Shown: one piece after another, positions 11,937 to 32,382 of the stretch
Position numbering within the stretch: the stretch's first letter is position 1
Layout: each line of letters starts with the position of its first letter
Virus record (IMG/VR): IMGVR_UViG_3300018036_002435
Span: 1-35,462 of that record
Length of the DNA: 35,462 bases
DNA from: a virus
Reading direction: 5' to 3' (one strand)
The notes under the pieces: model-generated
Told to the model about the DNA's origin: nothing
The model's database searches: none
What the model saw: the letters and a program-made list of their open reading frames with translations, nothing else
Made by a program: the position numbers and the translations under genes

Positions 11937-11957
11937 AACTTTTGTTTAAGATTGGTT

Positions 11958-12164: not shown

Positions 12165-12247
12165 CTGTTTGATTTGTTTGATGTTTAATTACATAGGTAA
12201 TATAATCAATTTCTACGACATAGAAAAACTTTTAGTGAATTATTTTT
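12165..12247 (-). promoter_or_regulatory. Early promoter/leader module P3
   Basis: In gene direction: AATAATTCACTAAAAG, TTTTTCTATGTCG, TAGAAATTGATTATATTACC, TATGTAATTAAA and then a gene-specific leader. The core matches P1/P2; the last ~20 nt before ATG diverge. Confidence 0.65.
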
Positions 12248-12283
12248 AAAAAAAGAATGGGCCCACCCCGAAGGGAAGGCCCA
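12248..12283 (-). terminator. Rho-independent terminator with TTCG tetraloop
   Basis: On the minus strand TGGGCC and GGCCCA form the outer stem, with an inner CCC-TTCG-GGG hairpin, followed by ATTC and seven T. It lies 40 nt after the stop of the 377-aa leftward gene and separates it from the P3 unit. The UUCG loop is an especially stable type. Confidence 0.9.
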
Positions 12284-12323
12284 ATTTATAGTAACATCTA
12301 CTCCTTTGTAGATACGGATTTTA

Positions 12324-13457: not shown

Positions 13458-13532
13458 ATTGCTTATAGCTTTAATTACAGTATAAATATAAACCTTTTTT
13501 CTTAAACGGGAAAACTTTTGGTGAATTATTTT
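13458..13532 (-). promoter_or_regulatory. Early promoter/leader module P4
   Basis: In gene direction: AATAATTCACCAAAAG, TTTAAGAAAAAAGG, TTTATATTTATACTG, then AATTAAAGCTATAAGCAAT before ATG. From the AAAAAAGG onward it matches P5 and P6 nearly exactly. Confidence 0.65.
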
Positions 13533-13540
13533 CTTATTTA

Positions 13541-13861
13541 TTATAGAGAGTTTTCCGCAATTGTTTCATTCCAGACACTAAGAAATTCATCATAGTTGAT
13601 TTCATCTGGTTCACCGAACACTAGCTCGTGTGATACAAATTCGAATCTGCTAGCAACATTGTTTTTGCTTTCAACTAGCTTGTGGAGAACCTCAATGACC
13701 TCATCTTCACTATAGAATAAGAGATCGCTATCGAAGTTATTAATCTCGAATTGGTGACCGCCTTTCGGTTTCCAATGTGGCTCTCCATCTCCATAGGTGT
13801 TGAAGCCATCGGGGCCGACATTATAATTTTCGTAGTACTGGCAATTGATAAGTAATTTCAT
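13541..13861 (-). CDS. Conserved-type small phage protein, 106 aa
   Basis: The best start is the ATG at 13859-13861 (MKLLINCQYYENYNVG). A longer ORF start at 13909 would overlap the upstream gene by 41 nt and is less likely; with the chosen start the gap is 7 nt. The N-terminus (QYYENYN...EPHWKPKGGHQFEI, residues 8-37) resembles small proteins of unknown function seen in other large phages and plasmids, which share an 'YxENY...WKxKGG' pattern; I cannot name the family. The remainder is acidic and helical (SEDEVIEVLHKLVE, NYDEFLSVWNETI). It is probably co-transcribed with the membrane protein upstream from P5. Confidence 0.72.
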   Translation of the reverse strand: MKLLINCQYYENYNVGPDGFNTYGDGEPHWKPKGGHQFEINNFDSDLLFYSEDEVIEVLHKLVESKNNVASRFEFVSHELVFGEPDEINYDEFLSVWNETIAENSL

Positions 13862-13868
13862 ATATAGG

Positions 13869-14063
13869 TTATTTATTTTCGACTTCAAAACTAGCGGCCA
13901 AAAGACCAAGACCCATCATACCAGTCAGCAAGAAGAATGCCATTGCGTTAGCCTCTCCAGCAAAGTGGATATAATTGTCAATTTGAGCAGTAGCTGTCAT
14001 GATAGCAGCGGTGATTGCAATGACTGCTCCAAGGAAGGGTTTAATGTTGAATGTGAATTTCAT
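13869..14063 (-). CDS. Small two-helix membrane protein, 64 aa
   Basis: The start ATG (14061-14063) directly follows the conserved leader; a longer in-frame reading from 14168 would translate the promoter module itself and is rejected. Two hydrophobic segments, residues 10-26 (FLGAVIAITAAIMTATA) and about 40-57 (AMAFFLLTGMMGLGLLAA), suggest a helical hairpin in the inner membrane. No family is recognised. Early phage membrane proteins of this size often affect superinfection or the host envelope, but nothing in the sequence shows that here. Confidence 0.7.
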   Translation of the reverse strand: MKFTFNIKPFLGAVIAITAAIMTATAQIDNYIHFAGEANAMAFFLLTGMMGLGLLAASFEVENK

Positions 14064-14138
14064 ATTGCGTATAGCTTTAATTACAGTATAAATATAAACC
14101 TTTTTTCTCAAATAAAAAAATCTGGAGTGAATTATTTT
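14064..14138 (-). promoter_or_regulatory. Early promoter/leader module P5
   Basis: In gene direction: AATAATTCACTCCAG, ATTTTTTTATTTGAG, AAAAAAGGTTTATATTTATA, CTGTAATTAAAGCTATA and CGCAAT before ATG. It differs from P6 by one base in the leader (ATACG for ATAAG). Confidence 0.65.
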
Positions 14139-14244
14139 CAACTTTTTTTCACGTATCCATAAACACACTCTTTTTTATATAAACACGACGGAGTCTACTC
14201 GGTCCCAGGTGGATTCCCTGTTACAATATGAGGGGTTAATAAGT

Positions 14245-14269
14245 GGGACCTCAGAGGGGATGAGGTCCC
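14245..14269. terminator. 9-bp hairpin after the 59-aa gene
   Basis: GGGACCTCA (14245-14253) pairs perfectly with TGAGGTCCC (14261-14269) around a 7-nt loop. It lies just beyond the stop of the leftward 59-aa gene. The T-rich tract (14271-14280) is on its plus-strand side, so it would be a classical terminator only for rightward transcripts; leftward it is a hairpin without a U-tract. It may act in both directions. Confidence 0.5.
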
Positions 14270-14278
14270 AAATTCTTT

Positions 14279-14458
14279 TTAGTCGATCAGACCCATCAGT
14301 CGGCGTTCGACAATTCGTTGACGAGCAGTAAAGTACTTAAGTTTGCCAGCAGCGAACTCGATCTTATCTCCATCCAATTGCTCGATGGCACGCTTCATCT
14401 TATAAGTCCAGTAGTCGATTTTTGGCTGGTAGCCATCAGGATAACGATTGTTTTTCAT
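14279..14458 (-). CDS. Small unknown early protein, 59 aa
   Basis: The ATG at 14456-14458 follows the P6 leader exactly (MKNNRYPDGYQPKIDYW). The in-frame extension to 14506 is promoter sequence. The protein is basic: a Tyr/Pro-rich N-terminus, then helices WTYKMKRAIEQLDGDKIEFAAGKLKYFTARQRIVERRL. No family is recognised. The helical, Lys/Arg-rich content would fit a small nucleic-acid- or protein-binding factor, but this is not demonstrated. It is a single-gene unit between P6 and the 14245 hairpin. Confidence 0.7.
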   Translation of the reverse strand: MKNNRYPDGYQPKIDYWTYKMKRAIEQLDGDKIEFAAGKLKYFTARQRIVERRLMGLID

Positions 14459-14533
14459 ATTGCTTATAGCTTTAATTACAGTATAAATATAAACCTTTTT
14501 TCTCAAATAAAAAAATCTGGAGTGAATTATTTT
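14459..14533 (-). promoter_or_regulatory. Early promoter/leader module P6
   Basis: In gene direction: AATAATTCACTCCAG, ATTTTTTTATTTGAG, AAAAAAGGTTTATATTTATA, then AATTAAAGCTATAAGCAAT before ATG. The TAA of the upstream 66-aa gene lies inside AATAATTCAC. Confidence 0.65.
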
Positions 14534-14727
14534 TCAACTTTTTTCATAGCATCTTCAATAATGGAATATTCACTATCAGTGTCATCCCAACCACGAAGCC
14601 ATTGAGCATATGGTTTAATCACAACTAATTCTTTAAGTAGCTCAGTAAGACGATTGCACTCATAGGGACGTCGTGGTTTATGATTCATACGTGCAATAAC
14701 TCCAAGGGTGTAAGGTGATATTCTCAT
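14527..14727 (-). CDS. Small unknown early protein, 66 aa
   Basis: MRISPYTLGVIARMNHKPRRPYECN opens a basic N-terminal half, followed by a helix (RLTELLKELVVIKPYAQWLRGW) and an acidic tail (DDTDSEYSIIEDAMKKVEK). Its ATG overlaps the stop of the 53-aa membrane protein by 1 nt (TAATG), so the pair is translationally coupled and driven by P7. No family is recognised. Confidence 0.7.
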   Translation of the reverse strand: MRISPYTLGVIARMNHKPRRPYECNRLTELLKELVVIKPYAQWLRGWDDTDSEYSIIEDAMKKVEK

Positions 14728-14888
14728 TATCCGATCATGTGTGCAATTTCAGGATACTTAGCGCGAAGCTCGATATTTTGCTTGATGCCCATCATCCAAA
14801 GGCTAACAGTAAACTCGGCCAAATGGGCAATAGTAACAACCACAAGAAGGTTGGTTAAAAAGTGATAGTTGTTAGAGAGAATCTCCAT
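14727..14888 (-). CDS. Small single-pass membrane protein, 53 aa
   Basis: The ORF begins MEILSNNYHF at 14886-14888, directly after promoter module P7, and ends in a TAA overlapping the next ATG. Residues 10-35 (FLTNLLVVVTIAHLAEFTVSLWMMG) form a convincing transmembrane helix; the C-terminus (KQNIELRAKYPEIAHMIG) is charged and probably cytoplasmic. It is too short for common gene-length cut-offs, but the module upstream and the coupling to the 66-aa gene support it. The function is unknown; a membrane-targeted early phage factor is likely. Confidence 0.68.
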   Translation of the reverse strand: MEILSNNYHFLTNLLVVVTIAHLAEFTVSLWMMGIKQNIELRAKYPEIAHMIG

Positions 14889-14969
14889 GTTGAATAATTA
14901 TTAAGTAACTTACATAGCTAATATAATCAATTCTGCTCAAATAAAAAAATCTGGAGTGAATTATTTTCA
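14889..14969 (-). promoter_or_regulatory. Early promoter/leader module P7
   Basis: In gene direction: AATAATTCACTCCAG, ATTTTTTTATTTGAG, CAGAATTGATTATATTAGC, TATGTAAGTTA and then an A/T-rich leader before ATG. The upstream half equals P5/P6, the core resembles P2/P3, and the leader is divergent. It is the leftmost arm of a divergent early control region. Confidence 0.6.
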
Positions 14970-15188
14970 AAAAAGTTTTCGTTGCGCCATGGCTCATATC
15001 GCGAATTAGCTACAGACTGCAACAGTATAAGTAATATACCATGGAGCGTAAAGTGCCAAGTGTAAGCGCATTATTCCGAGCGGCGACAGTTGTTAATAAC
15101 TTGTCTATATTATGTGACTATTATATTTTACCGTTTAGAGGAAATTGATTATATTTATATTGACGCACCTCATCCCGAGTGCAGTAAA
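14970..15188. other. Divergent intergenic control region
   Basis: No gene is supported here. The region separates leftward P7 from rightward P8. It contains two CCATGG and one TCGCGA palindrome, and the solitary promoter core P9. A bulged hairpin, GCAC(C)TC against GAGTGC, follows at about 15165-15182. The arrangement fits an early regulatory switch or origin-proximal region. Confidence 0.5.
15136..15165 (+). promoter_or_regulatory. Solitary promoter core P9
   Basis: GAAATTGATTATATTTATA at 15141-15159 is identical over 19 nt to the core of P1 on the other strand, but no ORF starts close downstream. It could be a second start site for the 15272 gene or drive a short untranslated RNA. Confidence 0.45.
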
Positions 15189-17535: not shown

Positions 17536-17563
17536 TCTATAATAATAAATGAATAATAGTAAT

Positions 17564-17854
17564 ATGAAGAGCATTTTAGAAGAAGCACACGAAATTGTAA
17601 ACAATCGAGGCGAAGAGGCAGATCGCCAATATGGCCCATTTTCAGAGGGCATGGATCGTGCCGCAAAAATCTTTAGTGGAATGACCGGTCTAGATGTAAC
17701 TGGCCGCGAAATGTTCATGGCACTCGTTGCACTTAAATTCTCTCGTGAAAGTTATAATCATAAACGCGACAATCTGCTTGATGCAGTCGCATATATTCAA
17801 GGCTTAGAGAATTATATTAACGATAAGAACCAATATCCAATTGGCGAAGAATAA
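17564..17854 (+). CDS. DUF6378-like phage protein
   Basis: 96 residues from MKSILEEAHEIVNNRGEEADRQYGPFSEGMDRAAKIFSGM. An alternative in-frame ATG at 17549 adds MNNSN but lies very close to a TATAAT-like box (17539-17544) and the terminator, so I prefer 17564. 'ILEEAxEIVN-R-xxYGPF', then a helical domain with ALVALKFSRESYNHKRDNLLDAVAYIQGLE, matches the all-helical DUF6378 pattern common in phages, which looks related to MazG-like/all-alpha folds. The function is unestablished. It overlaps the following DUF2452 gene by 14 nt. Confidence 0.7.
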   Translation: MKSILEEAHEIVNNRGEEADRQYGPFSEGMDRAAKIFSGMTGLDVTGREMFMALVALKFSRESYNHKRDNLLDAVAYIQGLENYINDKNQYPIGEE

Positions 17855-18254
17855 GAAAAAATATCCAGACCAGGTAGTCTACGACGAAGAGAGGGGTTTC
17901 TATGCCGCAGTACTACCATATGCAACTAATGTTGGAGCGCCAGCAATAGTTCATGAGGATGTTGATTCTTGGAAGGCAAGAGGTATTAATAAGGTTAATC
18001 ATCAATTAAAGGCAAAATTTGATGAGCTAAAAGCCGAGTTTCAAAAAATGGTTGATGAGTACCAATGGAACGAACTAGTATATTCATCAAAATTTAACTT
18101 TGAACCGGTTATAGGTGATACGTATCACCTTTATGTTGGTGAAGACGGTGGAGTTTTTCTCTCGCTAATTTCACCAACTGAATGGAACAGAAAATGTATA
18201 GGTTCCTTTCAATTAAGTAGTGAACATAAATGGATTAAAGTAAATGAAGACTAA
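17841..18254 (+). CDS. DUF2452 family protein
   Basis: 137 residues from a TTG start inside the upstream gene (MAKNKKKYPDQVVYDEERGF); no in-frame ATG exists before residue 60, so TTG is the only plausible start. The body matches DUF2452 closely. 'YATNVGAPAI' near residue 27 is followed by a helical 'VNHQLKAKFDELKAEFQKMVDEYQWNELVYSSKFNFEPV' region, then 'GDTYHLY', 'FLSLISPTEWN' and 'IGSFQLSSEHKWIKV'. DUF2452 is common in Bacteroidetes and other Gram-negatives and has no known function, which supports the host inference. It overlaps the SGNH-like gene by 11 nt. Confidence 0.85.
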   Translation: MAKNKKKYPDQVVYDEERGFYAAVLPYATNVGAPAIVHEDVDSWKARGINKVNHQLKAKFDELKAEFQKMVDEYQWNELVYSSKFNFEPVIGDTYHLYVGEDGGVFLSLISPTEWNRKCIGSFQLSSEHKWIKVNED

Positions 18255-19308
18255 AAGTTTTGCAAGTATTTCAAAAGAATTAAAGGGTAAAAAAGTAGCT
18301 ATTGACGATGTAGTCACGACGTATAGTACCAAACTAAGCTCTCATAAGAGTGCGTGGAGCTATCTACTACAATCACAGATTAAACATCATGGTATTAATG
18401 CTGATGTACTAACTAAATCTGATAATATTCACGAATATGACGCGTGGTTAGTTGCACTACCTATGGAATTTGCAGGAACCTATAATCTATTTGGTGGAGC
18501 AACTGATGAACCAGCAGAGCGAATTAAAAGATTTCTTGATTTTAAAGGTGACATTTATATTCTAAATCGAGAAATGCCAGATGTCGGTGAGTTTGTTCGA
18601 AGTCGACTGAAAAGCTGTTCAGATGGCTGGAAGGCTCTAGACAACGAGGCAATAAGTGCAAAATGTAAAGAAGTATCTACGGTTAGATTAATTGCAGGTA
18701 CCGGTACATTTGTTCTTGGAGATAGCCATTCGGTTTCAGTTGCACCATTTGGTAGCGATATCTGTAGAAATGACGGAAAAACTCTATTTGGAACTCTAAA
18801 GGAAGGAATTCATAATTATATTCCAGAAGGCACAAGTCATTTAATTACATATTTTGGTAATATCGATGTACGCCACCATCTATGTCGCCAATCAAATCCA
18901 TATCAGGCTGCGGTAGATTTGGCAACTAACTACATTAAACAGCTTCAAGGATTAGAGAGTCTTAACATTAATAAGATTACAGTACACACTCTCCTGCCAA
19001 TCGAGTATGAGGGTCGAAGAATTCCAAAAACAGGATGGTACAAGGGCACTCCCTTCGCTGGAAGCAGATTAGAGCGAGTTGAAGTTATGGAGGCGTTTAA
19101 TCATACTGTTCGAAAATTAGGTAAAGAGGCAGGATTTGAAGTTTTAGATTGGCCTACTCACTGGTTTGAAGAAAATGCAGAAGATTTTGCTAATAACTAT
19201 ATGGAAAAGCCAGGATCTGTTCACCTAAGCAGAGAGTTCTATTATTGGGACTGGAATACTGGAAATAAAAACCAAAATCTAATCAAAAAGACGATTAGTT
19301 TATTCTAA
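18244..19308 (+). CDS. SGNH/GDSL-like hydrolase domain protein
   Basis: 354 residues in two parts. Residues 1-145 are an unrecognised alpha/beta segment. From residue 156 the protein has the SGNH landmarks: VLGDSHS with the nucleophile Ser161, YFGNIDVRHH (203-212, the Gly-Asn block), and a C-terminal PGSVHLS with His327 in the catalytic-His position, although the usual preceding Asp (DxxH) is not in the standard place. Family members hydrolyse esters such as sugar O-acetyl groups. A role in modifying glycans or a small-molecule ester is possible. It lies between DUF2452 (overlap 11 nt) and cysteine synthase (10 nt gap). Confident on fold, not on activity. Confidence 0.65.
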   Translation: MKTKSFASISKELKGKKVAIDDVVTTYSTKLSSHKSAWSYLLQSQIKHHGINADVLTKSDNIHEYDAWLVALPMEFAGTYNLFGGATDEPAERIKRFLDFKGDIYILNREMPDVGEFVRSRLKSCSDGWKALDNEAISAKCKEVSTVRLIAGTGTFVLGDSHSVSVAPFGSDICRNDGKTLFGTLKEGIHNYIPEGTSHLITYFGNIDVRHHLCRQSNPYQAAVDLATNYIKQLQGLESLNINKITVHTLLPIEYEGRRIPKTGWYKGTPFAGSRLERVEVMEAFNHTVRKLGKEAGFEVLDWPTHWFEENAEDFANNYMEKPGSVHLSREFYYWDWNTGNKNQNLIKKTISLF

Positions 19309-20314: not shown

Positions 20315-21523
20315 ATGAACGAAAAAATTAAAGTTGGGATTATTGGTACAGGAAATTGTGCTAAATCTCTAGTAGAAGGTGTACAGTACTATACTGAACA
20401 CACCGATGCAAAAACAGGTATGATGAAATTCGATATTGGAGGATATAAAGCCGAAAATATTGAATTTGTAGTAGGATTCGATATTGACGAACGCAAAATT
20501 GGTCTTCCTCTTGGAGAAGCGCTTAAAAAGCGACCAAACTGTGCATACGATATCGTGGAGACTATTACTAACACATCTCCAGTGTACGAATCTCCAGTTA
20601 TTGATGGATATGCGTCCCTAATGGATCACTACCCAGAAGCAAATCGTTTCTTAGTAGATGAGGATCTTCGTAACGAGACTGATATGAATCGTACAGCATG
20701 GACCTCTAAAAAAGAGCGCCAATGGAAAGATCGTATTATTACTCAATTAAAAGAATATGACGTAGAAGTATTGGTAAACTATTTGCCAGTAGGTTCTCAA
20801 AAAACTACAGAGTTTTGGGCTGAAATCTGTCTAGAAACTGGAATCTCTTTCGTGAACTGTATTCCGGTCTTTATCGCATCTGATCCAAAATGGGAGCAGC
20901 GTTTTATCGATGCTGGAATTCCATTGATTGGAGATGATATGCGTAGTCAGTTTGGTGCTTCAATTCTTTCTCAAATGCTACAAGAACTTGCATTCGAACG
21001 TGGACACCATGTAAAAGCACACATCCAACGTAATGTTGGAGGTAACACAGACTTCTTGAACATGGAAGACAAATCACGCCTTGCTTCTAAGAAGATCTCT
21101 AAAGAGAATGTAATCCGCGCTCAGAATGAAATTCGTAACATCTCGACTGATGATTCATTCCTACATGCTGGCCCATCTGAGTACATTCCATACTACGCAG
21201 ATAATAAAGTGGCTAACTTCCGTCTTGAAATGGAAGGATTTGGAGGAGCTCCAGTTATCTTTGATGCTCAGCTATCCGTACAAGATTCACCAAACTCTGG
21301 TGGTGTTGTAATCGATGCTCTTCGCTACGTAAAAGTAGCTCGCGAAATGGGAATCGTTGGTGCTCTTCGTGGACCTTCTGCCCTTACGCAAAAAACTCCA
21401 CCTCAGCAGATGATGTTCCGTGATGGAGTTGTTGAATGTGATGCATTGGCAAATCGTGAATTGACAGAGGTTACTAAGAAGCAACTTAAGCTGGCAACGC
21501 CTCGAACAAAAACAACTGTTTAA
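20315..21523 (+). CDS. ino1: Myo-inositol-1-phosphate synthase
   Basis: 402 residues. A Rossmann start (KVGIIGTGNCAKSLVEG, GTGNCA at 11-16) is followed by VNYLPVGSQ, FVNCIPVFIASDP, GDDMRSQFGASILSQML, FLNMEDKSRLASKKISKENV, and the C-terminal EMEGFGGAPVIFDAQLSVQD with NSGGVVIDALRYVKVA. This order and content is that of inositol-3-phosphate synthases of the shorter actinobacterial/archaeal type. It converts glucose-6-phosphate to inositol-phosphate with NAD, the entry to inositol lipids and glycans. All 21 Arg codons are CGN, none AGA/AGG, in contrast to flanking AGA-rich genes, implying strong selected expression. It has its own candidate promoter and terminator. Confidence 0.93.
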   Translation: MNEKIKVGIIGTGNCAKSLVEGVQYYTEHTDAKTGMMKFDIGGYKAENIEFVVGFDIDERKIGLPLGEALKKRPNCAYDIVETITNTSPVYESPVIDGYASLMDHYPEANRFLVDEDLRNETDMNRTAWTSKKERQWKDRIITQLKEYDVEVLVNYLPVGSQKTTEFWAEICLETGISFVNCIPVFIASDPKWEQRFIDAGIPLIGDDMRSQFGASILSQMLQELAFERGHHVKAHIQRNVGGNTDFLNMEDKSRLASKKISKENVIRAQNEIRNISTDDSFLHAGPSEYIPYYADNKVANFRLEMEGFGGAPVIFDAQLSVQDSPNSGGVVIDALRYVKVAREMGIVGALRGPSALTQKTPPQQMMFRDGVVECDALANRELTEVTKKQLKLATPRTKTTV

Positions 21524-21543
21524 CCTTTATTTAGTTGTGATAA

Positions 21544-21570
21544 GGGAGCCTACAACGGCTCCCTTTTTTT
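21544..21570 (+). terminator. Rho-independent terminator after ino1
   Basis: GGGAGCC (21544-21550) pairs with GGCTCCC (21557-21563) around a 6-nt loop, followed by seven T. It lies 20 nt after the inositol-phosphate synthase stop. A textbook terminator. Confidence 0.95.
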
Positions 21571-21611
21571 CAAAAATATTAAGGATTAATAGATTAAAGT
21601 ATTATAATATT

Positions 21612-21995
21612 ATGAGAACAGGACACGAATTTTACGGATATGATTTTGACGGTGTAGTTTCAATTGGAGTAACGCCAAGATGGACGGATGATATAATCAT
21701 TACAGGAAGATGTATTGATGAGGCAGAATATGTACAAGAGTATGTAGAGAAAAACACAGGATTTATTGGCGAGATTATTTTCAACCCAATGACCCTAGCA
21801 GAACGAGGAAATCATACAGTACAGGCAAGAACCTATTCAGGTCTACATAAGGCAAGAACGATTAAAAAGCTTAGAGAGGATGGGTATAACCTTACTCGAT
21901 TTTTTGAAGATGATCCAATCCAAAAAGCAATTATCGAAGAGGAAAATCCAGAAGTACAAGTAGTACACATAGTATCAAATTTAGTACAAAAATAA
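21612..21995 (+). CDS. HAD-superfamily phosphatase-like protein
   Basis: 127 residues from the ATG at 21612 (MRTGHEFYGYDFDGVVSIGV). A longer reading from 21537 would start inside the terminator and is rejected. YDFDGVV gives the HAD motif I (Asp11 nucleophile, Asp13 acid), IIITGR (about 29-34) fits motif II, KARTIKKLREDG supplies the motif III Lys region, and FFEDDP has the motif IV acidic pair. HAD proteins are Mg-dependent phosphatases; the substrate is not evident. Being next to inositol-phosphate synthase it could act on a sugar or inositol phosphate, but a nucleotide 5'-phosphatase is as likely. It overlaps the methyltransferase start by 1 nt and has the TTAAAGT element 18 nt upstream. 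Confidence 0.8.
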   Translation: MRTGHEFYGYDFDGVVSIGVTPRWTDDIIITGRCIDEAEYVQEYVEKNTGFIGEIIFNPMTLAERGNHTVQARTYSGLHKARTIKKLREDGYNLTRFFEDDPIQKAIIEEENPEVQVVHIVSNLVQK

Positions 21996-22666
21996 TGGCA
22001 CGCCTAACTAAACAACAATCAAATCTTAAAAAAAGGTACATTGCTGAGCTAAATGCACAAGAAAGGGTAGATAAAGATATGATTAAAGAATCTATCGTTA
22101 ACTACATTAAAGAAGAAGTAGATTATAATAATAAAGTTTGCCTAGATTTAGGAACTAATATTGGCGGATTTACTAAAATTGCATTAGATCACGGAGCATC
22201 TAGGGTATATGGTGTAGAATGCGATTTTAGAAATTATAATATAGCATCTTCTAATTTTGCTTCAGAAATTAAAGTAAAGATTTTATATGCAGCGGTTTCT
22301 GGATCTAATGAAGAAACCGTAAAAATATACAAGTCTGGAGCAAAAAGTAACCATAGCTCAACTTCAATAATTAAAAGAAATAATAGGTTTGGTGAATATG
22401 ATGATGTAAAAAACTATCATATAGAAAACCTATTATCTGAAGTAAAACCAGACATAATCAAAGTAGACATCGAAGGTGCAGAATATGATATTATAGAAAG
22501 TATATTAGAATACAAACCTAAAATATTATTTATTGAACTACACGGTAATCATGAAAGATCTAAATCTGCAATACAAAGATTAACAGAAACCTACAAAAAT
22601 AATCAAATAGAAGAAATTATAATCTTCCAAGAAGTTGGAGGATATGACTGTTTATTCTATGATTAA
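21995..22666 (+). CDS. FkbM-family methyltransferase
   Basis: 223 residues. The SAM-binding Rossmann core has CLDLGTNIGGFT (49-60, glycine-rich loop) and VYGVECDFRNYNIA (acidic residue of motif II). A later IIKVDIEGAEYDIIESI is the strongly conserved 'D-x-E-G-x-E' signature of the FkbM family, followed by ILFIELHG. FkbM enzymes O-methylate sugars or polyketides. The protein is coupled to the HAD gene by a TAATG overlap. With the glycan cassette elsewhere in the window it may methylate a phage glycan, but the acceptor is unknown. The N-terminal 30 residues are basic and probably outside the fold. Confidence 0.87.
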   Translation: MARLTKQQSNLKKRYIAELNAQERVDKDMIKESIVNYIKEEVDYNNKVCLDLGTNIGGFTKIALDHGASRVYGVECDFRNYNIASSNFASEIKVKILYAAVSGSNEETVKIYKSGAKSNHSSTSIIKRNNRFGEYDDVKNYHIENLLSEVKPDIIKVDIEGAEYDIIESILEYKPKILFIELHGNHERSKSAIQRLTETYKNNQIEEIIIFQEVGGYDCLFYD

Positions 22667-22680
22667 AATAATATATTAAT

Positions 22681-23733
22681 ATGTCGGATAATATGAGAGC
22701 GCTAGTCAACATGGAGGTCGTTGACAGAATAGGATACTTTTTTAATAAGGTAAATGAAAGATCCGAACTTAATTATGGATATAGAAATAGTTATGACAGT
22801 GGAGGTGATGAAGCCCTAGGAGAAACAGTAGAATACTTTCACCCCCACATTCTATATGACGATCGTATGAGATATATCATGCAGAATATTGTTCTGTCAG
22901 ATATGTCCATGGATAATATTATTTGTAATACCATAATATCTCACTTTTATGGAGCAAGAGGTATTCACCAGATTTTAACAAGAGAACCTGATCCTAAAAA
23001 AGCACTTATTGATTTTGAAAGGTTGCTTGTAGATAAGGACTATGAAATGGAAATCCGAAAAAATATAGACGATGCTCTTTCTCTTGGACTGGGAATATAT
23101 GGTACAACAGAATTAAGGACTTCTCTTTTTGGAGCTTCTAATCAGTGGGTATCTGAAAATAGAGGAGTAGAAAGAAATGCAGATAAGATTAACATATTAC
23201 TTTGGGTTGCTGGATTTATTCCTAGAGGTATTACAAAAAGAATGGCTAGGGTAAAATCTCTTGAGGAGATGTATGGTATATTAACCCAAATTGAAGGAGT
23301 AGGTCAATACTATGGCTATCATTGCTCGACATCAAATTCAGTTAATCCAAACATACCAATAAATCATGATGAAAGATTTTGCATGCCAGGTCCCGGTGCT
23401 AGACTGACACTCGACATGATGTTTGGTGAAGGGTGTAAAATACCACATGGCGATAGAGTAATATGGTTTAGAGAAAACTATAAAGATTTAATAGGTGAAA
23501 TTTCACTTAATAAAAATGAGTGGAATATGGTCGTCGATGGTGTAAAAATATTCGAACATGAGCAGAATGAGTTGAAGACATATGGATGTGAAGTTGGCTT
23601 ATGTCAGTTTGGTGTATATTCAAGGTTAAGTGCTAATCCAAATTTGATTAATAAACGAAAGGTTGCAAGGGTTAATGAATCAACAATGGATTATTTTTAC
23701 AATAATAATTTTACACAAAACACTCTATTCTAA
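22681..23733 (+). CDS. HMUDK/aGPT-PPlase-like helical-domain protein
   Basis: 350 residues, no signal peptide. IEGVGQYYGYH (204-214) is a helix-hairpin-helix-like turn, followed by a conserved-looking Asp230 (INHDERFCM) and PGPGARLTL (236-244). This 'GxG-aromatic ... D ... GPGA' order is the one I associate with the helical domain of 5-hydroxymethyl-dU DNA kinases and alpha-glutamyl/putrescinyl-thymine pyrophosphorylases (PF18723-type), which act on hypermodified thymines in phage DNA. The earlier helices (MDNIICNTIISHFYG, LGLGIYGTTELRTSLF) fit the same fold. No kinase P-loop is visible. Similarity is by eye, so a different HhH-type protein is possible. It overlaps the cREC-like gene by 1 nt. 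Confidence 0.45.
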   Translation: MSDNMRALVNMEVVDRIGYFFNKVNERSELNYGYRNSYDSGGDEALGETVEYFHPHILYDDRMRYIMQNIVLSDMSMDNIICNTIISHFYGARGIHQILTREPDPKKALIDFERLLVDKDYEMEIRKNIDDALSLGLGIYGTTELRTSLFGASNQWVSENRGVERNADKINILLWVAGFIPRGITKRMARVKSLEEMYGILTQIEGVGQYYGYHCSTSNSVNPNIPINHDERFCMPGPGARLTLDMMFGEGCKIPHGDRVIWFRENYKDLIGEISLNKNEWNMVVDGVKIFEHEQNELKTYGCEVGLCQFGVYSRLSANPNLINKRKVARVNESTMDYFYNNNFTQNTLF

Positions 23734-24168: not shown

Positions 24169-24636
24169 ATGGCAAACACCGATAATCAATGCAAAGATCT
24201 AGAAGTCAAAGACTTTTATGATGAATCTACGACGCATCTTGAAGATATTATGAAACATCAAAAAGAGATGCAGGAAAAGACTTATGGCTTTAACTTTGAA
24301 GATATGAGCCTTCGCGATGTAATGAATTTCTGGCACACTAACACACATGCTGTAATCGATGAAATTCATGAAATGACTGATGCTCTTGGAGGTATTAAAG
24401 ATGGCAGTGGAAATGCCATTTGGAAATACTGGAAAACTGACTTCTCAAAGTATGAAAACATGAAAGTTTCTGATTTATCAGAAGATGATAAAAAAGAGCT
24501 TTATATGGAGTGGGTAGATATTCTACACTTTTTTATAAACTATGCAGCATCTATCGGCCTTGACGCAAAAACAGCATACAACTATTATTTTGCAAAAGCT
24601 GAAGAAAACAAAGCTCGCCAAAAAAGAGGATACTAA
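24169..24636 (+). CDS. Dimeric all-alpha dUTPase / NTP pyrophosphatase
   Basis: 155 residues, all helical. The metal-binding acidic pairs of the all-alpha NTP-PPase superfamily are visible: DEIHEMTDAL (Glu65, Glu68) and MEWVDILHFFINYA (Glu114, Asp117). Then comes AYNYYFAKAEENKARQKRGY, in which K, N, R and the terminal RGY are the nucleotide-contact residues of dimeric dUTPases. The enzyme hydrolyses dUTP to dUMP and pyrophosphate, feeding the thymidylate synthases in this window and keeping uracil out of DNA. The ATG has the TTAAAGT element 18 nt upstream and overlaps the next gene by 1 nt. Confidence 0.85.
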   Translation: MANTDNQCKDLEVKDFYDESTTHLEDIMKHQKEMQEKTYGFNFEDMSLRDVMNFWHTNTHAVIDEIHEMTDALGGIKDGSGNAIWKYWKTDFSKYENMKVSDLSEDDKKELYMEWVDILHFFINYAASIGLDAKTAYNYYFAKAEENKARQKRGY

Positions 24637-25202: not shown

Positions 25203-25481
25203 ATGTCAACCGTTAAAATTGTTGAAACACCAAAGGAAATTTACTGGTCAGTTACATATGAAGGTACTTTAGAAATTGACGGAGTTGAAGTTGGATATCG
25301 ATTTCACGAAGACAGCAATGGTGTTGAAATCTTTGTGTATGAAGATGGAGAAGGATGGACTTCAGATCCCTCAGAGAGTTTAGCAGAAACTTATGATGTT
25401 CTATACGAACTTCTTACCGAGTTTGATTGTACCGAATTAGGAAATGAAGGCGAAGAATTTGAATTTGATGAAGAAGAATGA
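25203..25481 (+). CDS. Acidic unknown protein, 92 aa
   Basis: A strongly acidic protein (many Asp/Glu, tail GEEFEFDEEE) with beta-rich stretches (YWSVTYEGTLEIDGVEVGYRF, VEIFVYEDGEGW) and a helix (SLAETYDVLYELLTEFD). The composition and size are like phage DNA-mimic or inhibitor proteins, but no specific family is recognised. It shares an ATTATG start context with the HAD and dUTPase genes and overlaps ThyA by 4 nt. Confidence 0.65.
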   Translation: MSTVKIVETPKEIYWSVTYEGTLEIDGVEVGYRFHEDSNGVEIFVYEDGEGWTSDPSESLAETYDVLYELLTEFDCTELGNEGEEFEFDEEE

Positions 25482-26536
25482 ACACACTAGATAGAGATTA
25501 CCAAGACATTATTCAAAAGATATTTACTAAGGGTAGTAAAAAAGGAGATCGTACCGGTACAGGTACGATCTCTATCTTTGGAGAGGAGATTAGCCATAAC
25601 ATGAAAGAAGGTTTTCCTCTGTTGACTACAAAGAAGATGGCGTGGAAAACTATGGTAACTGAGTTATTGTGGTTCTTAAAAGGAGATACGAACATCAAGT
25701 ACTTAGTTGAAAACGGATGTAATATTTGGAATGGTGATGCCTATAAGGCATATGCTACTTATGCTCGGGGTTTAGAGGAACCAGATTATAGTGTACACAT
25801 TGATGATCCAGTTCAAAATAAGGTTCGTATCCTAACGCAAGCTGAATTTATTGAGCGTATTAATACGGATGATTTATTTGCTATGCAATGGGGTGAGTTA
25901 GGCCCTATCTATGGAAAGCAATGGAGAGATTGGAATGGAACAGATCAAATCCAAAACCTAATTAACGACCTTAAAACAAATCCAGATTCAAGACGTTTGA
26001 TGGTTAATGCTTGGAATGTAGATGAGTTGGATAAGATGACTCTTCCCCCGTGCCATTATGGATTTCAAGTGTACACTCGAGAACTTTCACAAAATGAGAG
26101 ATGGTCATGGTACCAAAAGCAGATTGGGTCTGCGATGTATCATGATCGCATAGAACAAGAGATGGACGCCGAAGGTGTACCTACTCGAGAGATTTCTCTT
26201 ATGTGGAACCAGAGGTCTGCTGATTATTTTTTAGGAGTACCTTTTAATATCGCAAGCTATGGTCTACTTCTAACAATTATAGCAAATATAGTAGATATGG
26301 TTCCTGGTAAACTAGTTGGTAGATTTGGAGATACTCATCTATATCTAAACCACACGTCACAGGCTTCTAAACAATTAGTAAGAGAGCCATATAAATTACC
26401 AACTCTTAAAATAAACAAGGATAAAGACTTCTGGAATCAAGATTTAGATTTAATTATCGATGGTTTATTAAAAGAAGATTTTGAATTAGTAGAATACCAA
26501 TATCATCCTTCAATTAAAGCGCCTTTAAGTAATTAA
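25478..26536 (+). CDS. thyA: Thymidylate synthase (ThyA-type)
   Basis: 352 residues. The TS hallmarks are in place: DRTGTGT with Arg25, GPIYGKQWR (142-150), DSRRLMV (Arg172/Arg173), LPPCH with catalytic Cys192, RSADYFLGVPFNIASY with Asn257 (the dUMP-discriminating Asn), and GDTHLYLNH (284-292). It methylates dUMP with methylene-tetrahydrofolate to give dTMP. It is longer than the usual ~265 residues because of insertions at about 95-130 and about 200-235, between QVYT and the RSAD block. The usual WDEW region reads IWNGDAYKAY. dUMP hydroxymethylation rather than methylation cannot be excluded from sequence. It directly follows the acidic protein (overlap 4 nt). Confidence 0.93.
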   Translation: MNTLDRDYQDIIQKIFTKGSKKGDRTGTGTISIFGEEISHNMKEGFPLLTTKKMAWKTMVTELLWFLKGDTNIKYLVENGCNIWNGDAYKAYATYARGLEEPDYSVHIDDPVQNKVRILTQAEFIERINTDDLFAMQWGELGPIYGKQWRDWNGTDQIQNLINDLKTNPDSRRLMVNAWNVDELDKMTLPPCHYGFQVYTRELSQNERWSWYQKQIGSAMYHDRIEQEMDAEGVPTREISLMWNQRSADYFLGVPFNIASYGLLLTIIANIVDMVPGKLVGRFGDTHLYLNHTSQASKQLVREPYKLPTLKINKDKDFWNQDLDLIIDGLLKEDFELVEYQYHPSIKAPLSN

Positions 26537-27001: not shown

Positions 27002-27268
27002 ATGGGATTTTCGGATATAATAATCGAAAGTCCCATATTACTTTTAATAATTATGATACTTAATTGGAGCAGACTTAATGGAGAATATCTCAGCTGGTCG
27101 ATCAAAAATGGAGATGGTCGAAATACAGATGACCTAAGATTTGGACAGTATCTCTGGTCTAAATATGAAAATATGAAAGATTTTACAGATGTTTTTCACT
27201 ATGAGTCTTGTGAAAAAACATATTCAACACTTTTAACTAATTTACATGAGCTTGAAGAAAAAGACTGA
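27002..27268 (+). CDS. Unknown protein, 88 aa, hydrophobic N-terminus
   Basis: MGFSDIIIESPILLLIIMILNW has a hydrophobic stretch at residues 11-20, perhaps a short membrane anchor. The rest is soluble and aromatic (DDLRFGQYLWSKYENMKDFTDVFHYE). An internal ATG at 27053 (MILNWSRL) is an alternative start that would remove the anchor. No family is recognised. It overlaps the LOG gene by 23 nt. Confidence 0.62.
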   Translation: MGFSDIIIESPILLLIIMILNWSRLNGEYLSWSIKNGDGRNTDDLRFGQYLWSKYENMKDFTDVFHYESCEKTYSTLLTNLHELEEKD

Positions 27269-27908
27269 AGATGCTTGGCAAATTCTAAGAATTCAAGGAG
27301 AATTTACTAAGGGATTCGATACATTTAACGATCTTCCACCGTGTGTTTCAGTATTTGGTAGCGCAAGAACCAAAACCGGAACAAAATGGTATGAAGAGGC
27401 AAAACTATTTGGTACCATAATGGGTGCCGAAGGATTTGGAATTATTACGGGAGGAGGTCCTGGCATTATGCAAGCAGCAAATCACGGCGCGAAAAATGTA
27501 TCTGCCCCTTCAATTGGAGTTGGAATTGAGCTTCCATTCGAGTCTGGTATGAATAAGTATGTTACACAAGGAATCGAATGTAGATATTTCTTTACAAGGA
27601 AAGTAATGTTTCTTAAATACTCACAAGCATTTGTTGTATTTCCAGGAGGATTAGGAACCCTAGACGAATTGTTCGAAACGCTAACACTTGCACAGACTGG
27701 ACATACTCCTAAATTTCCAATAATTCTAGTAGGTAAAAAATATTGGGGAGGTCTTGTTGATTGGTTGCAAGAAACTGTAGCCACAGCCGGTCGAATGAGC
27801 CAAAAAGATTTTGATATGTTTAGAATTGTCGACACTGCAGAAGAAGCTCGAGATAAGGTTATGGAATTCCATAATAAGTATCGTCAAGAAAATGAAACCA
27901 ATTTCTAA
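27246..27908 (+). CDS. LOG-family nucleotide-binding protein (phosphoribohydrolase-like)
   Basis: 220 residues with the LOG/lysine-decarboxylase-like Rossmann motifs: VSVFGSAR (34-41), IITGGGPGIMQAAN (66-79), RYFFTRKVMFL (Arg/Lys active-site region) and VFPGGLGTLDELFE (131-144), the PGGxGTxxE signature. Characterised members remove the base from nucleoside 5'-monophosphates to give ribose-5-phosphate and free base, for example cytokinin precursors or purine monophosphates. The phage substrate is unknown. Start MSLKKKTEDAW overlaps the upstream gene. Phage LOG proteins could act in nucleotide turnover or counter-defence; there is no direct evidence for either. Confidence 0.88.
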   Translation: MSLKKKTEDAWQILRIQGEFTKGFDTFNDLPPCVSVFGSARTKTGTKWYEEAKLFGTIMGAEGFGIITGGGPGIMQAANHGAKNVSAPSIGVGIELPFESGMNKYVTQGIECRYFFTRKVMFLKYSQAFVVFPGGLGTLDELFETLTLAQTGHTPKFPIILVGKKYWGGLVDWLQETVATAGRMSQKDFDMFRIVDTAEEARDKVMEFHNKYRQENETNF

Positions 27909-28492: not shown

Positions 28493-30511
28493 ATGTCATT
28501 AGCAGCAGACGGGTACGAAAACGAAAGAGGTCGAAAAAGAAAAATAAAGACCAACACTCCATTTTTAGATGAGTATGGAGAAGACTTGACTAAGCTTGCC
28601 GCAGAAGGAAAGCTAGATCCTATTATTGGTAGAGATAATGAAATTTACAGAATTTGTCAAATTTTAGCCCGTAGAAAAAAGAATAATCCAATTATTTTAG
28701 GAGATCCTGGTGTTGGTAAGACTGCAATAGTAGAAGCTATTGCACAAAGAATAGTATCTAAAAAAGTTGCAAGAGTTCTCTTAAATAAGAGAGTGGTATC
28801 TATCAACATGACAACAATTGTAGCAGGTACAAAATATAGAGGAGAGTTTGAAGAGCGTATGAAAAATATTGTCGAAGAACTTAAAATGGCAGAAAATGTC
28901 ATTGTGTTTATCGATGAAATTCATACAATTGTCGGAGCAGGAGGAGTTAGTGGTGCATTAGACGCATCTAATATTTTAAAGCCTGCCCTTGCAAGAGGGC
29001 AAGTCCAGTGTATTGGAGCAACTACGCTAGATGAATATAGAGAAAATATTGAAGATGACGGTGCATTGACCCGTAGATTTCAAGAGGTATTCATTGACCC
29101 GCCTTCAATTGAAGAAACTATAGAAATTCTAGGTAGAATTAAAGTTAAATATGAAGATCACCATTCTGTAGAATATACCGATGATGCAATTGAAGCATGT
29201 GTAAAGTTGAGTGAGCGTTATATTAAATCAAGAGAATTACCTGATAAGGCAATTGATTTAATGGATGAATCTGGAGCAAGAACTCATCTATTAGAAGTAA
29301 AAGTTCCATCTAAGATTAAAAACTTAGAAAGAGAGGCAGAAGAGGTTAGAATTAAAAAAGAAAATGCAGTACTAGAACAAGACTATGAACTTGCTGCAAC
29401 TTTAAGAGATACTCAGATTGCAGTAGACCAAAAGGTAATAGATGCTACTATTGAATGGGAAGAATCTCTTAAAAAGACTAGAAGAACGGTAGATATTAAC
29501 GATATTGCTGAAACTATATCAATGCAAACTGGAATTCCAGTAAAAAGATTAGGAGTTGATGATAAGAAAATGATTATTAAAATGGCTGAAGAGCTAAAAT
29601 CAAAAATCATTGGACAAGACTCAGCAGTAGAGGCTCTTTCTACTGTAATTAAAAGGTCTAGAACTGGAGTAAGTAGTCATAATAAACCAGTTGGATCGTT
29701 TATGTTCTTAGGACCTACTGGAGTTGGTAAAACTGAAACAGTAAAGGCATTATCTGAATATATGTTTGGAGATACGGATTCAATGATTAGAATCGATATG
29801 TCAGAATATCAAGAAAAATTTAATGTTTCAAGATTGATTGGATCTCCTCCTGGATATGTTGGACATGAAGATGGTGGCCAATTGACAGAAGCAGTTCGTA
29901 GAAAGCCGCATTCTGTAATTCTTTTTGATGAAGTAGAAAAGGCCCATCCTGATGTATTTAATACGTTGCTTCAGGTTCTTGATGAGGGTAGATTAACTGA
30001 TTCTGGAGGCAGAACAGTAGATTTTACAAATTCAATCATTATAATGACATCAAATGTTGGGGCTAGAAAAATTGCTGATTTTGGAACTGGAATTGGATTC
30101 CAAAGTGAAAGTACCATGCTGCAAAAAAGCGCAAAGATAGAAGCAATAATCAAAAAGGAATTAAAAAACAAATTTAGTCCAGAATTTCTAAATAGACTAG
30201 ACGATATTATTCTATTTGACCACCTTACAACAGAAGACGTTCTTTCTATTGTAGAAATTGAATTAAACTCGTTCAATGAAAGAATCGCTGAAGAAGGATA
30301 TTCTTTTAAATTTATGAAAGCAGCAAAAGACTTTATAGCACAAGAAGGATATGATAAGGCATTTGGTGCAAGGCCAATTAAAAGAGCAATTCAAAAATAT
30401 GTAGAAGACTTAGTAGCCGATTCAATATTAACGGAAGATATTAAACCTCGAGAAAAACCATATATTATTACTAAAGTAAAGGCAGAAGATAAACTAAACA
30501 TCAAAGTCTAA
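28493..30511 (+). CDS. ClpC-like AAA+ unfoldase lacking the N-domain
   Basis: 672 residues with two AAA+ modules. Walker A1 GDPGVGKT is at 70-77, Walker B1 VIVFIDE at 136-142, a short UVR-like segment DYELAATLRD at 297-306, Walker A2 GPTGVGKT at 407-414, Walker B2 VILFDE at 475-480, and Arg-finger/sensor blocks (FLNRLDDIILF). The Clp N-terminal domain (about 150 residues in ClpC) is absent; only about 45 residues precede module 1. After SNVGAR there is IGF (534-536), the position and form of the ClpP-docking loop. It should unfold substrates and feed a ClpP-type protease, and a ClpP gene lies 1.2 kb downstream. How substrates are chosen without the N-domain is unknown. Confidence 0.92.
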   Translation: MSLAADGYENERGRKRKIKTNTPFLDEYGEDLTKLAAEGKLDPIIGRDNEIYRICQILARRKKNNPIILGDPGVGKTAIVEAIAQRIVSKKVARVLLNKRVVSINMTTIVAGTKYRGEFEERMKNIVEELKMAENVIVFIDEIHTIVGAGGVSGALDASNILKPALARGQVQCIGATTLDEYRENIEDDGALTRRFQEVFIDPPSIEETIEILGRIKVKYEDHHSVEYTDDAIEACVKLSERYIKSRELPDKAIDLMDESGARTHLLEVKVPSKIKNLEREAEEVRIKKENAVLEQDYELAATLRDTQIAVDQKVIDATIEWEESLKKTRRTVDINDIAETISMQTGIPVKRLGVDDKKMIIKMAEELKSKIIGQDSAVEALSTVIKRSRTGVSSHNKPVGSFMFLGPTGVGKTETVKALSEYMFGDTDSMIRIDMSEYQEKFNVSRLIGSPPGYVGHEDGGQLTEAVRRKPHSVILFDEVEKAHPDVFNTLLQVLDEGRLTDSGGRTVDFTNSIIIMTSNVGARKIADFGTGIGFQSESTMLQKSAKIEAIIKKELKNKFSPEFLNRLDDIILFDHLTTEDVLSIVEIELNSFNERIAEEGYSFKFMKAAKDFIAQEGYDKAFGARPIKRAIQKYVEDLVADSILTEDIKPREKPYIITKVKAEDKLNIKV

Positions 30512-30536: not shown

Positions 30537-31385
30537 ATGAGCTTTTCAGATACATTTATTGAATTAGTTAAAGAGATAGAAAACTATAATTCAGAATCGG
30601 CACCTCGAGAAATGAAAGCAAAAGAAGCCTTAATGGCTTCTTTTGACATAGACCCAACATCGCCAATTGCAAACTTTAAAGATAGAGAATTTAATTTTAA
30701 ATACTTTACTGGAGAATTAGCATGGTATCTACATAGAAGTAGAGATGTTGAATATATTTCTCATTTTTCTAAATTTTGGAAAGGTTTAACCAATCCAAAT
30801 ACAAACCAAATCAACTCAAATTACGGGCATCTAGTTATTAATGATGATCAGTATGGATGGGTTATTGATTCACTTGTAAAAGATAAAGATTCTCGACAGG
30901 CAATTATGTTCTTTAATCGCCCAGAGTATCAATTCAAAGAGAACAAAGATTTTGTATGTACTCTATACTCTAATTTCTTTATCAGAAATAATAAGCTATT
31001 TATGAAAATACAAATGAGATCAAATGACATATTTTTTGGCCTCACATTTGATGCTCCATTCTTTTCATTCTTGCACCAATCAGTATATAATGATCTTAAA
31101 CAGACTTATCCTGATCTAGAACTTGGAACATACTATCATTTCGTAGATAATATTCATTTTTATGAAAGACATTTTGAACTTGCTAATAAAATTAAAAAAA
31201 ATGGCAAAGGTGAAGATTTCAAATTAATTCTTAAAAAATCATTAATTGAGTATAGAAATAATGAAGTTCATTTAACAGACTCTGGTTTAGAATTTCTTAG
31301 ACGTGTAGATTCTGCAATTAATTCTGAAAAGAGAGGATCTAGTGTAGATTATAGACTGATACTAAATGATTATTTTGAAATCTAA
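30537..31385 (+). CDS. TS-superfamily nucleotide hydroxymethylase-like enzyme (Asp-type)
   Basis: 282 residues with a divergent thymidylate-synthase layout: FTGELAWYL (57-65), NYG (95-97), DSRQAIM (Arg120), DFVCTLYSNFF with the candidate catalytic Cys141, MRSNDIFFGLTFDAPFFSFL (160-179) and DNIHFYERH (204-212, the 'GDxHxYxNH' block). The Asn that selects uracil in ThyA is Asp172 here, and the Cys-Asp distance of 31 residues equals Cys146-Asn177 of E. coli ThyA and Cys148-Asp179 of T4 dCMP hydroxymethylase. That points to dCMP (or another 4-amino pyrimidine) as substrate. It is distinct from the ThyA at 25478. The ATG carries the TTAAAGT element 18 nt upstream and it overlaps the next gene by 1 nt. 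Confidence 0.75.
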   Translation: MSFSDTFIELVKEIENYNSESAPREMKAKEALMASFDIDPTSPIANFKDREFNFKYFTGELAWYLHRSRDVEYISHFSKFWKGLTNPNTNQINSNYGHLVINDDQYGWVIDSLVKDKDSRQAIMFFNRPEYQFKENKDFVCTLYSNFFIRNNKLFMKIQMRSNDIFFGLTFDAPFFSFLHQSVYNDLKQTYPDLELGTYYHFVDNIHFYERHFELANKIKKNGKGEDFKLILKKSLIEYRNNEVHLTDSGLEFLRRVDSAINSEKRGSSVDYRLILNDYFEI

Positions 31386-31699
31386 TGGATAGTCAAAAAA
31401 TTCCACCAGTAATACACGTAGATCCTAGTAAGTTTCTAAAGGAAGATTTTGAGCTAATGCTCATGTCTAAATACGATATATTCTATAGAAGAATAGTAGA
31501 GTATATTTTAGAAGATGTTGAAGGTATAAAAGACCTAGGAATACTTGCAATCTTAGTAGACGAAGAAGGAGTAGAATATGAACTTAATTTACCTAAAGAA
31601 GGATATAAAAAATCTTTAAATAAAGCGCTTGAATACTTCAAAGCAATTGAAGAGTATGAGACGTGCGACCTAATTAAACAAATACTACAAAATATATGA
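31385..31699 (+). CDS. Unknown protein, 104 aa
   Basis: MDSQKIPPVIHVDPSKFLKEDFELMLMSKYDIFYRRIVEYIL is helical and acidic, followed by a strand pair (ILAILVDEEGVEYELNL) and a helical end (YKKSLNKALEYFKAIEEYETCDLIKQIL). No motif is recognised. It overlaps the hydroxymethylase-like gene by 1 nt and ClpP by 4 nt, so all three are translated as one string; a partner or adaptor role towards ClpP or the TS homologue is possible but unproven. Confidence 0.68.
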   Translation: MDSQKIPPVIHVDPSKFLKEDFELMLMSKYDIFYRRIVEYILEDVEGIKDLGILAILVDEEGVEYELNLPKEGYKKSLNKALEYFKAIEEYETCDLIKQILQNI

Positions 31700-32382
31700 A
31701 TTATTTTCCAAAAGATAAAGAGTTTAACAGATTTGCTGCTAGTGAATTTGGAATAGGATCATCTACACTAGATATTTACAAAGGAATTCAGGGAAATATG
31801 ACACCCTATATCCTAGAAGAAAGAGAGCTGAGAGCGACTCAAATGGATATTTTTAGTAGATTAATGATGGATAGAATCCTATGGGTTGCTGGTCCAGTAA
31901 ACGATCAAATGTCTACAGTCGTGCAAGCACAGCTAATGTTTTTAGACACTACTTCATCCGAAGATATAACAATGCATATTGATTCTCCGGGTGGTTCAGT
32001 TAAATCTGGATTATCTATGGTAGACGTTATGGATTATATTAATGCAGATATTAGAACAATTAATACAGGAATGGCCGCCTCTATGGGATCTGTTTTACTT
32101 GGAGCTGGAACAAAAGGAAAAAGAATGTCACTTAGACATTCAACGACAATGCTACACCAGTCTTCGGGAGGATTTAGTGGAAATATTCAAGATGCTGAAA
32201 TTGATTGGATGGAATGGCAAAAGGTAAATCATGAATTATTTGTTCTGTTAGGATCTTATTGTGGAAAAGATCCCGAGCAGGTAAAGGCAGATGCAACTAG
32301 AGATTTTTGGCTAAATGCTGAACAAGCTGTAGAATACGGAATTATAGACGAGATTGTTAAAAACAATATTAAAAATAGTTAA
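31696..32382 (+). CDS. clpP: ClpP-type serine protease
   Basis: 228 residues. The catalytic triad is complete: Ser129 in GMAASMGS, His154 in TTMLHQ, Asp203 in TRDFWL. HIDSPGGSV (94-102) forms the oxyanion region. The protein has about 35 extra residues at the N-terminus compared with mature bacterial ClpP (MNYFPKDKEFNRF...). That could be a propeptide or a phage-specific gating extension. ClpP assembles as a tetradecamer and needs a Clp ATPase; the ClpC-like gene upstream has a matching IGF loop. Phage ClpP proteins are also used as prohead proteases, but no scaffold gene is nearby, so host or phage proteolysis is the simpler reading. Confidence 0.93.
   Translation: MNYFPKDKEFNRFAASEFGIGSSTLDIYKGIQGNMTPYILEERELRATQMDIFSRLMMDRILWVAGPVNDQMSTVVQAQLMFLDTTSSEDITMHIDSPGGSVKSGLSMVDVMDYINADIRTINTGMAASMGSVLLGAGTKGKRMSLRHSTTMLHQSSGGFSGNIQDAEIDWMEWQKVNHELFVLLGSYCGKDPEQVKADATRDFWLNAEQAVEYGIIDEIVKNNIKNS

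Follow-up and report, generated by a model that had tools for sequence, protein, structure and literature searches.

In bacteriophage T4, dCTP is taken out by the dCTPase gp56. The dCMP hydroxymethylase of this phage, gp42, chooses its base through Asp179, and Asp145, located three residues before the catalytic cysteine, activates water together with Ser94 and Tyr96 (PMC6400193, PMC5175136). An Asp or Glu three residues before the cysteine plus a Ser/Thr-x-Tyr motif is the hydroxymethylation signature that came out of the study of the T4 ternary complex (PMC6400193), and deoxy preference has been assigned to Arg and Ser at the positions where the CMP hydroxymethylase MilA carries Lys and Ala (PMC5175136). 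Homologues of the dCTPase also occur in T4-like phages without known enzymes for 5-hydroxymethylcytosine (hmC) (PMC8056088), hence a dCTPase taken on its own is weak evidence. The reference 5-HMU DNA kinase, when tested, did not phosphorylate hmC (PMC6457204).

Here, we analysed a 35,462-base virus fragment from IMG/VR (the window). A preliminary description of this DNA had pointed out a thymidylate synthase (TS) superfamily protein, encoded at 30537–31385, with a cysteine and an aspartate 31 residues apart, and had predicted modified cytosine in the phage DNA.

Results

Sequence family and predicted fold

The gene under study is as follows:

30537–31385, plus strand: predicted dCMP 5-hydroxymethylase of the T4 gp42 type, TS superfamily, 282 amino acids (Pfam/PHROG, PDB sequence search, AlphaFold2, Foldseek, calibration table, tree)

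The reading frame is open from an ATG start, and its TAA stop codon shares one base with the ATG of the downstream gene, an overlap consistent with a single transcription unit. The protein matched the thymidylate synthase families of Pfam (Thymidylat_synt, 3.4e-19) and PHROG (1.4e-38) and scored far under the NCBI cut-offs for ThyA. In a sequence search of the PDB, T4 dCMP hydroxymethylase came first (1.7e-21) and MilA second (2.5e-17), with the true thymidylate synthases trailing at 2e-10 or worse. An AlphaFold2 (AF2) model, built from 40 aligned window and IMG/VR sequences, had a mean pLDDT of 93.6 and a pTM of 0.92. A comparison of the predicted structure with gp42 and MilA had been proposed earlier, and these two were indeed the top Foldseek matches: MilA was the best one, T4 dCMP hydroxymethylase was also on top, and thymidylate synthases all ranked lower. 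The protein had been called very divergent, which holds against T4 gp42 (29% identity by structure alignment) but not against its close relatives in IMG/VR contigs (70–74%). Hydroxymethylase relatives were retrieved from viral contigs by an alignment query; a query with the single protein gave no match there. An Rfam scan and a tRNA scan were both empty.

Active-site residues

Cys141 and Asp172 are indeed 31 residues apart, and align with C148 and D179 of T4 dCMP hydroxymethylase as well as with the Cys and Asn of the window's own ThyA. By sequence alignment, AF2 and Foldseek, C141 occupies the position of the cysteine nucleophile in the TS fold. The codons of the active site, with the predicted roles of the residues and their conservation in 87 aligned sequences, are listed below.

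30714–30716, plus strand: Glu60 (T4 Glu60), cofactor activation; invariant, 87/87
30816–30824, plus strand: Ser94-Asn95-Tyr96 (T4 Ser94/Tyr96), water network, role according to PMC6400193; Ser 86/87, Tyr 87/87
30948–30950, plus strand: Asp138 (T4 Asp145), water activation for hydroxymethylation; 87/87, Leu in thymidylate synthases
30957–30962, plus strand: Cys141-Thr142, nucleophile plus the CT column that marks hmC-type enzymes; 87/87, CN in hmU-type enzymes and CH in most ThyA
31050–31052, plus strand: Asp172 (T4 Asp179), cytosine recognition; 87/87, Asn in hmU-type enzymes and ThyA

The aligned set comprised the window protein, 80 IMG/VR loci and 6 phage loci, with identity down to about 30%. 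D138, C141, T142, S162, D164 and D172 are identical in 87/87 sequences, a set fetched by the motif MRS[NS]D and similarity to the query, so that close kin are over-represented, with D138 and D172 lying outside the search pattern; such identity argues that the active-site pattern did not arise by chance. The pattern D..CT..D was found in the window protein and all 86 aligned relatives. D138, S94 and Y96 of the window protein make up the hydroxymethylation signature. Arg120 and Ser162, of the deoxy type, stand where MilA has its ribose-type Lys133 and Ala176. The C-terminus, ending in LNDYFEI, has no ThyA-like tail closing over the folate. One point against the gp42 assignment is the phosphate-binding Arg pair, which in the window protein is R120-Q121 and not Arg-Arg; Q121 is usual among the relatives (83/87) and is present in the SPO1 and ViI enzymes too.

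Calibration and phylogeny

Three active-site columns were calibrated on phages whose DNA bases are known; the set consisted of ThyA, hmU-type and gp42 enzymes and calibrates the choice of base, not hydroxymethyl against the methyl of Xp12-type dCMP methylases. The ThyA of the phages tested read L..CH..N, with CV instead of CH in phage G; the enzymes of SPO1 (hmU) and of ViI, M6 and phiW-14 (hypermodified thymine) read D..CN..N; gp42 of T4, 44RR and Aeromonas phage 25 read D..CT..D, and that of RB69 E..CT..D. In the window protein the pattern is D..CT..D, accompanied by E60, S94, Y96, R120 and S162. This protein has neither the features of a thymidylate synthase (a Leu ahead of PC(H), an Asn for base discrimination, a C-terminal tail) nor those of a dUMP hydroxymethylase of the SPO1/ViI type (Asn at the base position, CN).

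In a maximum-likelihood tree of 40 rows, in which several branches are long and the deeper joins uncertain, the window protein fell into a clade of 22 rows (97/94) with gp42 of T4, 44RR and phage 25 and with Xp15. The hmU enzymes formed a separate clade (100/95), as did ThyA (100/100), including that of the window; RB69 gp42 and a homologue from Tenacibaculum phage PTm1 sat on long branches and did not join the gp42 clade. From the D..CT..D pattern and the grouping with T4 and 44RR gp42 we conclude with high confidence that the product of 30537–31385 is a dCMP 5-hydroxymethylase of the T4 gp42 type, and infer that it is catalytically active; what we observed is the family of its sequence, the fold predicted for it, the type of its active site and the linkage of its gene.

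Genes around the hydroxymethylase

Two further genes of nucleotide metabolism lie upstream:

24169–24636, plus strand: gp56-like dCTP/dUTP pyrophosphatase, which would supply dCMP/dUMP and remove dCTP (31% identity over 97% to T4-like gp56 dCTPases, E 5e-17; PHROG 173)
25478–26536, plus strand: canonical ThyA (dUMP to dTMP), 352 amino acids, with Cys192/Asn257 and a C-terminal APLSN tail

Asn257 of ThyA had been noted before and was confirmed; it is 65 residues away from Cys192, not 31, because of an insertion. In four close relatives the hydroxymethylase gene is placed between genes of a Clp ATPase and a ClpP-like protease, downstream of ThyA and a LOG-family gene. One of the four is the 148.8-kb contig G004, which its numerous protein matches to Aeromonas phage 44RR2.8t mark as a distant T4-like phage. 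More distant relatives adjoin or lie near genes of hmC decorators, namely beta-glucosyltransferase, NodU-like carbamoyltransferase and alpha-glucosyltransferase. No nucleotide kinase for hm-dCMP was identified within the 35-kb fragment.

Some other features of the window were also observed. The ClpA/B-like ATPase (28493–30511) and the ClpP-like protease (31696–32382) that flank the hydroxymethylase are 84–92% conserved in relatives, and the LOG/TIGR00730 family (SLOG) protein (27246–27908), found next to ThyA across the lineage, might act as a nucleotide phosphoribohydrolase. At 11399–14980, an AT-rich element of 66–94 nt is present in six to seven copies, several of them directly upstream of small minus-strand ORFs, and resembles repeated early promoter/leader units.

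A conserved cassette at 17.5–24.6 kb

Together with the gp56-like dCTPase gene, the following genes form a cassette:

17549–17854, plus strand: DUF6378 protein, upstream end of the cassette (Pfam 4.3e-10; 26/31 contigs)
18244–19308, plus strand: SGNH/GDSL-like protein, candidate hmC-DNA modifying partner (invariant GDSH, GNID and C-terminal His; weak Lipase_GDSL_2 match)
20315–21523, plus strand: inositol-3-phosphate synthase-like (INO1-like) enzyme (TIGR03450 3.1e-86, under the curated cut-off of the model; 29/31 contigs)
21537–21995, plus strand: small DxDG-motif protein, possibly a HAD-type phosphatase (DFDG motif; weak HAD match of a homologue; 29/31 contigs)
21995–22666, plus strand: FkbM-type methyltransferase (Pfam 5.2e-13; 27/31 contigs)
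22681–23733, plus strand: protein with the 5-hmdU DNA kinase helical domain (PF18723, HMUDK_hel; Pfam 3.2e-13; AF2 model matches)

The contigs counted are 31 IMG/VR contigs retrieved with the 22681–23733 protein. The seven genes (starting at 17549, 18244, 20315, 21537, 21995, 22681 and 24169) keep their order, each being present in 22–31 of the 31, and the dCTPase is 79–97% identical in most of them.

The AF2 model of the PF18723 protein (pLDDT 82) matched, in a viral fold library, ORF233c of Aeromonas phage 31 (9e-12), the SP10 5-hmdU DNA kinase (7.8e-6) and others of this class; profile and fold searches of the PDB returned nothing significant. ViI, M6 and phiW-14 encode PF18723; SPO1, T4 and RB69 do not. 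None of the PF18723 proteins inspected, that of the window included, has a Walker A motif, so the word kinase should not be taken literally; the 22681–23733 protein may bind or flip a hydroxymethyl-pyrimidine in DNA. In one close relative (L010, 1829–3022), the PF18723 gene is swapped in place for a version only 28–33% identical, unlike most of its neighbours, possibly reflecting a switch of modification type.

The SGNH-hydrolase-like pattern of the 18244–19308 protein (GDSH, GNID, late His) is weakly supported by Pfam. A single 795-aa ORF (PHROG 17781) joins the 18244 and 22681 families in Aeromonas phages 44RR2.8t and 31, and this fusion argues that the two act together. All 40 phage records outside Tenacibaculum with an SGNH-like homologue, which represent only a few independent lineages and were matched by eye between the two record lists, also carry a gp42 at least 79.6% identical to that of 44RR; an E..C..D homologue is encoded by Tenacibaculum PTm1. 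Among the cassette contigs, the Asp-type enzyme was found in 5 of 31 records, including both of those above 130 kb (148.8 and 139.5 kb), a co-occurrence that cannot be judged on smaller fragments (the largest records without the enzyme are of 71–95 kb). In the contig G031, the cassette and the hydroxymethylase are about 90 kb apart.

The co-occurrence of SGNH-like protein and gp42 suggests an undescribed hypermodification built on hmC. Our tentative proposal, which we hold with somewhat less than even confidence, is that the PF18723 protein recognises or flips hmC in DNA and its SGNH-like partner substitutes the hydroxymethyl group, with a small molecule that might come from the INO1-like, phosphatase-like and FkbM neighbours. 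In Aeromonas phage 25, the SGNH-like gene stands next to a UDP-galactopyranose mutase gene and there is no PF18723 protein, so more than one cassette product is possible. In this phage (L136, 3773–5954), a 358-aa protein of no assigned family is also encoded beside the SGNH-like gene, and Lactobacillus phage ATCCB likewise has a UDP-galactopyranose mutase by its hydroxymethylase, the two mutases suggesting a furanose-type hmC sugar.

Discussion

One challenge to a cytosine-specific enzyme comes from the cassette itself, since a protein with the helical domain of 5-hmdU DNA kinases is encoded nearby and PF18723 is shared by ViI, M6 and phiW-14, phages that hypermodify thymine. The enzyme might thus make hydroxymethyl-dUMP (a dUMP 5-hydroxymethylase) for the hypermodification of thymine. 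However, each of the four hmU-type enzymes tested carries one Asn at the base position and another directly after the Cys, where the window protein has Asp and Thr; they form a clade apart, and among named phages it is gp42-carrying Aeromonas phages that hold the closest relatives of the PF18723 protein. We therefore regard this reading as very unlikely. Direct thymine hypermodification was rejected on the type of the active site, D..CT..D. A uracil-type (Asn, CN) hydroxymethylase is absent from the sequences of the window, G004 and G031, all possibly incomplete; in the latter two, the only TS homologues are of the Asp type, plus ThyA in G004.

An Asp at the base position by itself converts a thymidylate synthase to a dCMP methylase, as cited in PMC8670742, and 5-methyl-dCMP would be made by such an enzyme, as in phage Xp12 or in Asn-to-Asp thymidylate synthase mutants. 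The preliminary description had allowed for either product. Hydroxymethyl is favoured and methyl is unlikely: Asp138, Ser94 and Tyr96 constitute the hydroxymethylation signature (PMC6400193), and the Leu before Cys and the closing C-terminal tail of thymidylate synthases are both lacking, which makes a methylase highly improbable. As MilA was the best Foldseek match and the second-best sequence match, a ribonucleotide CMP hydroxymethylase acting for a secondary metabolite or an RNA precursor was weighed as well; Arg120/Ser162 in place of Lys133/Ala176 (PMC5175136) and the company of dCTPase and ThyA, in phages of a T4-like lineage, leave it scarcely credible.

For the dCMP 5-hydroxymethylase, a mechanism may be put forward by analogy with T4. 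Cys141 would attack C6 of dCMP, Asp172 would recognise and protonate the cytosine ring, methylene-THF would donate the carbon, and a water activated by Asp138 with Ser94/Tyr96 would add to the exocyclic methylene, replacing the hydride transfer of thymidylate synthase and giving 5-hydroxymethyl-dCMP and THF. The dCTPase (24169–24636) would clear dCTP and yield dCMP, with ThyA making dTMP separately; read through T4 biology, the three genes would represent the full T4 cytosine-replacement logic, and virion cytosine would be replaced by hmC, as in T4. The hydroxymethyl group would then probably be substituted further by the cassette at 17.5–24.6 kb. Residue calibration, phylogeny and gene context all support the earlier suggestions that Asp confers cytosine specificity, that the enzyme is not redundant with ThyA, and that the phage DNA contains modified cytosine. 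That the chemistry may be new found no support as regards the enzyme; any novelty would sit downstream, in the cassette, which the preliminary description had not linked to it.

With this enzyme, the cytosine-replacement strategy of T4 reaches into a T4-like lineage that is distant and uncultivated, and the three-column rule (L..CH..N, D..CN..N, D..CT..D) makes modified thymine and modified cytosine predictable from sequence. If true, the cassette route would parallel the 5-hmdU DNA kinase pathways on the cytosine side and could account for the protection of hmC in Aeromonas T4-like phages; it is testable in the cultured phages 44RR2.8t, 31 and 25. If confirmed, it would yield a base new to DNA and a novel pair of enzymes that act on hmC, with a bearing on restriction escape and DNA-labelling enzymology.

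Comparison with known systems

With T4 gp42 (PDB 1b49, 1b5d, 6a9a), the window protein shares the Cys/Asp spacing, the Asp three residues before Cys, Ser-x-Tyr, Glu60, the Ser/Arg deoxy-type residues, the fold and the lack of a closing C-terminal tail, and the genetic partners are also common to both: a gp56-like dCTPase and a separate ThyA. It differs in its 29% identity, in R120-Q121 instead of Arg-Arg and in a longer C-terminal part (282 vs 246 aa), and no glucosyltransferase gene was found beside it. The Asp-type TS homologues of Xp15, Acinetobacter MD-2021a, Enterococcus vipetofem/VPE25, Lactobacillus ATCCB and Bacillus phage G share D..CT..D at 32–35% identity; they are encoded beside or near carbamoyl- or glucosyltransferase genes, whereas the window gene is about 7 kb from the SGNH-like/PF18723 cassette.

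The 5-hmC carbamoyltransferase system (MetaGPA, PMC8670742) also has an Asp-type hydroxymethylase, and the window encodes a NodU-family carbamoyltransferase (4012–5703). This protein is 26% identical to that of Xp15 over half its length, GdmN/TobZ being closer, and its gene lies among glycosyl/pyruvyl transferase genes, 25 kb from the hydroxymethylase; in G004, the neighbours are kept and the carbamoyltransferase is missing. It was rejected as a known 5-hmC carbamoyltransferase on account of this distance, the identity to Xp15 and the absence from G004. The dUMP hydroxymethylases of SPO1, ViI, M6 and phiW-14 share the superfamily, the Asp three residues before Cys, the Glu and the Tyr, and differ in CN, in Asn at the base position and in their separate clade. 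Finally, the 5-hmdU DNA kinase and amino acid:DNA transferase systems of SP10, ViI, M6 and phiW-14 have a PF18723 helical-domain protein in common with the window, which is set apart from the kinase systems by a cytosine-type hydroxymethylase, a PF18723 protein without Walker A and an SGNH-like partner.
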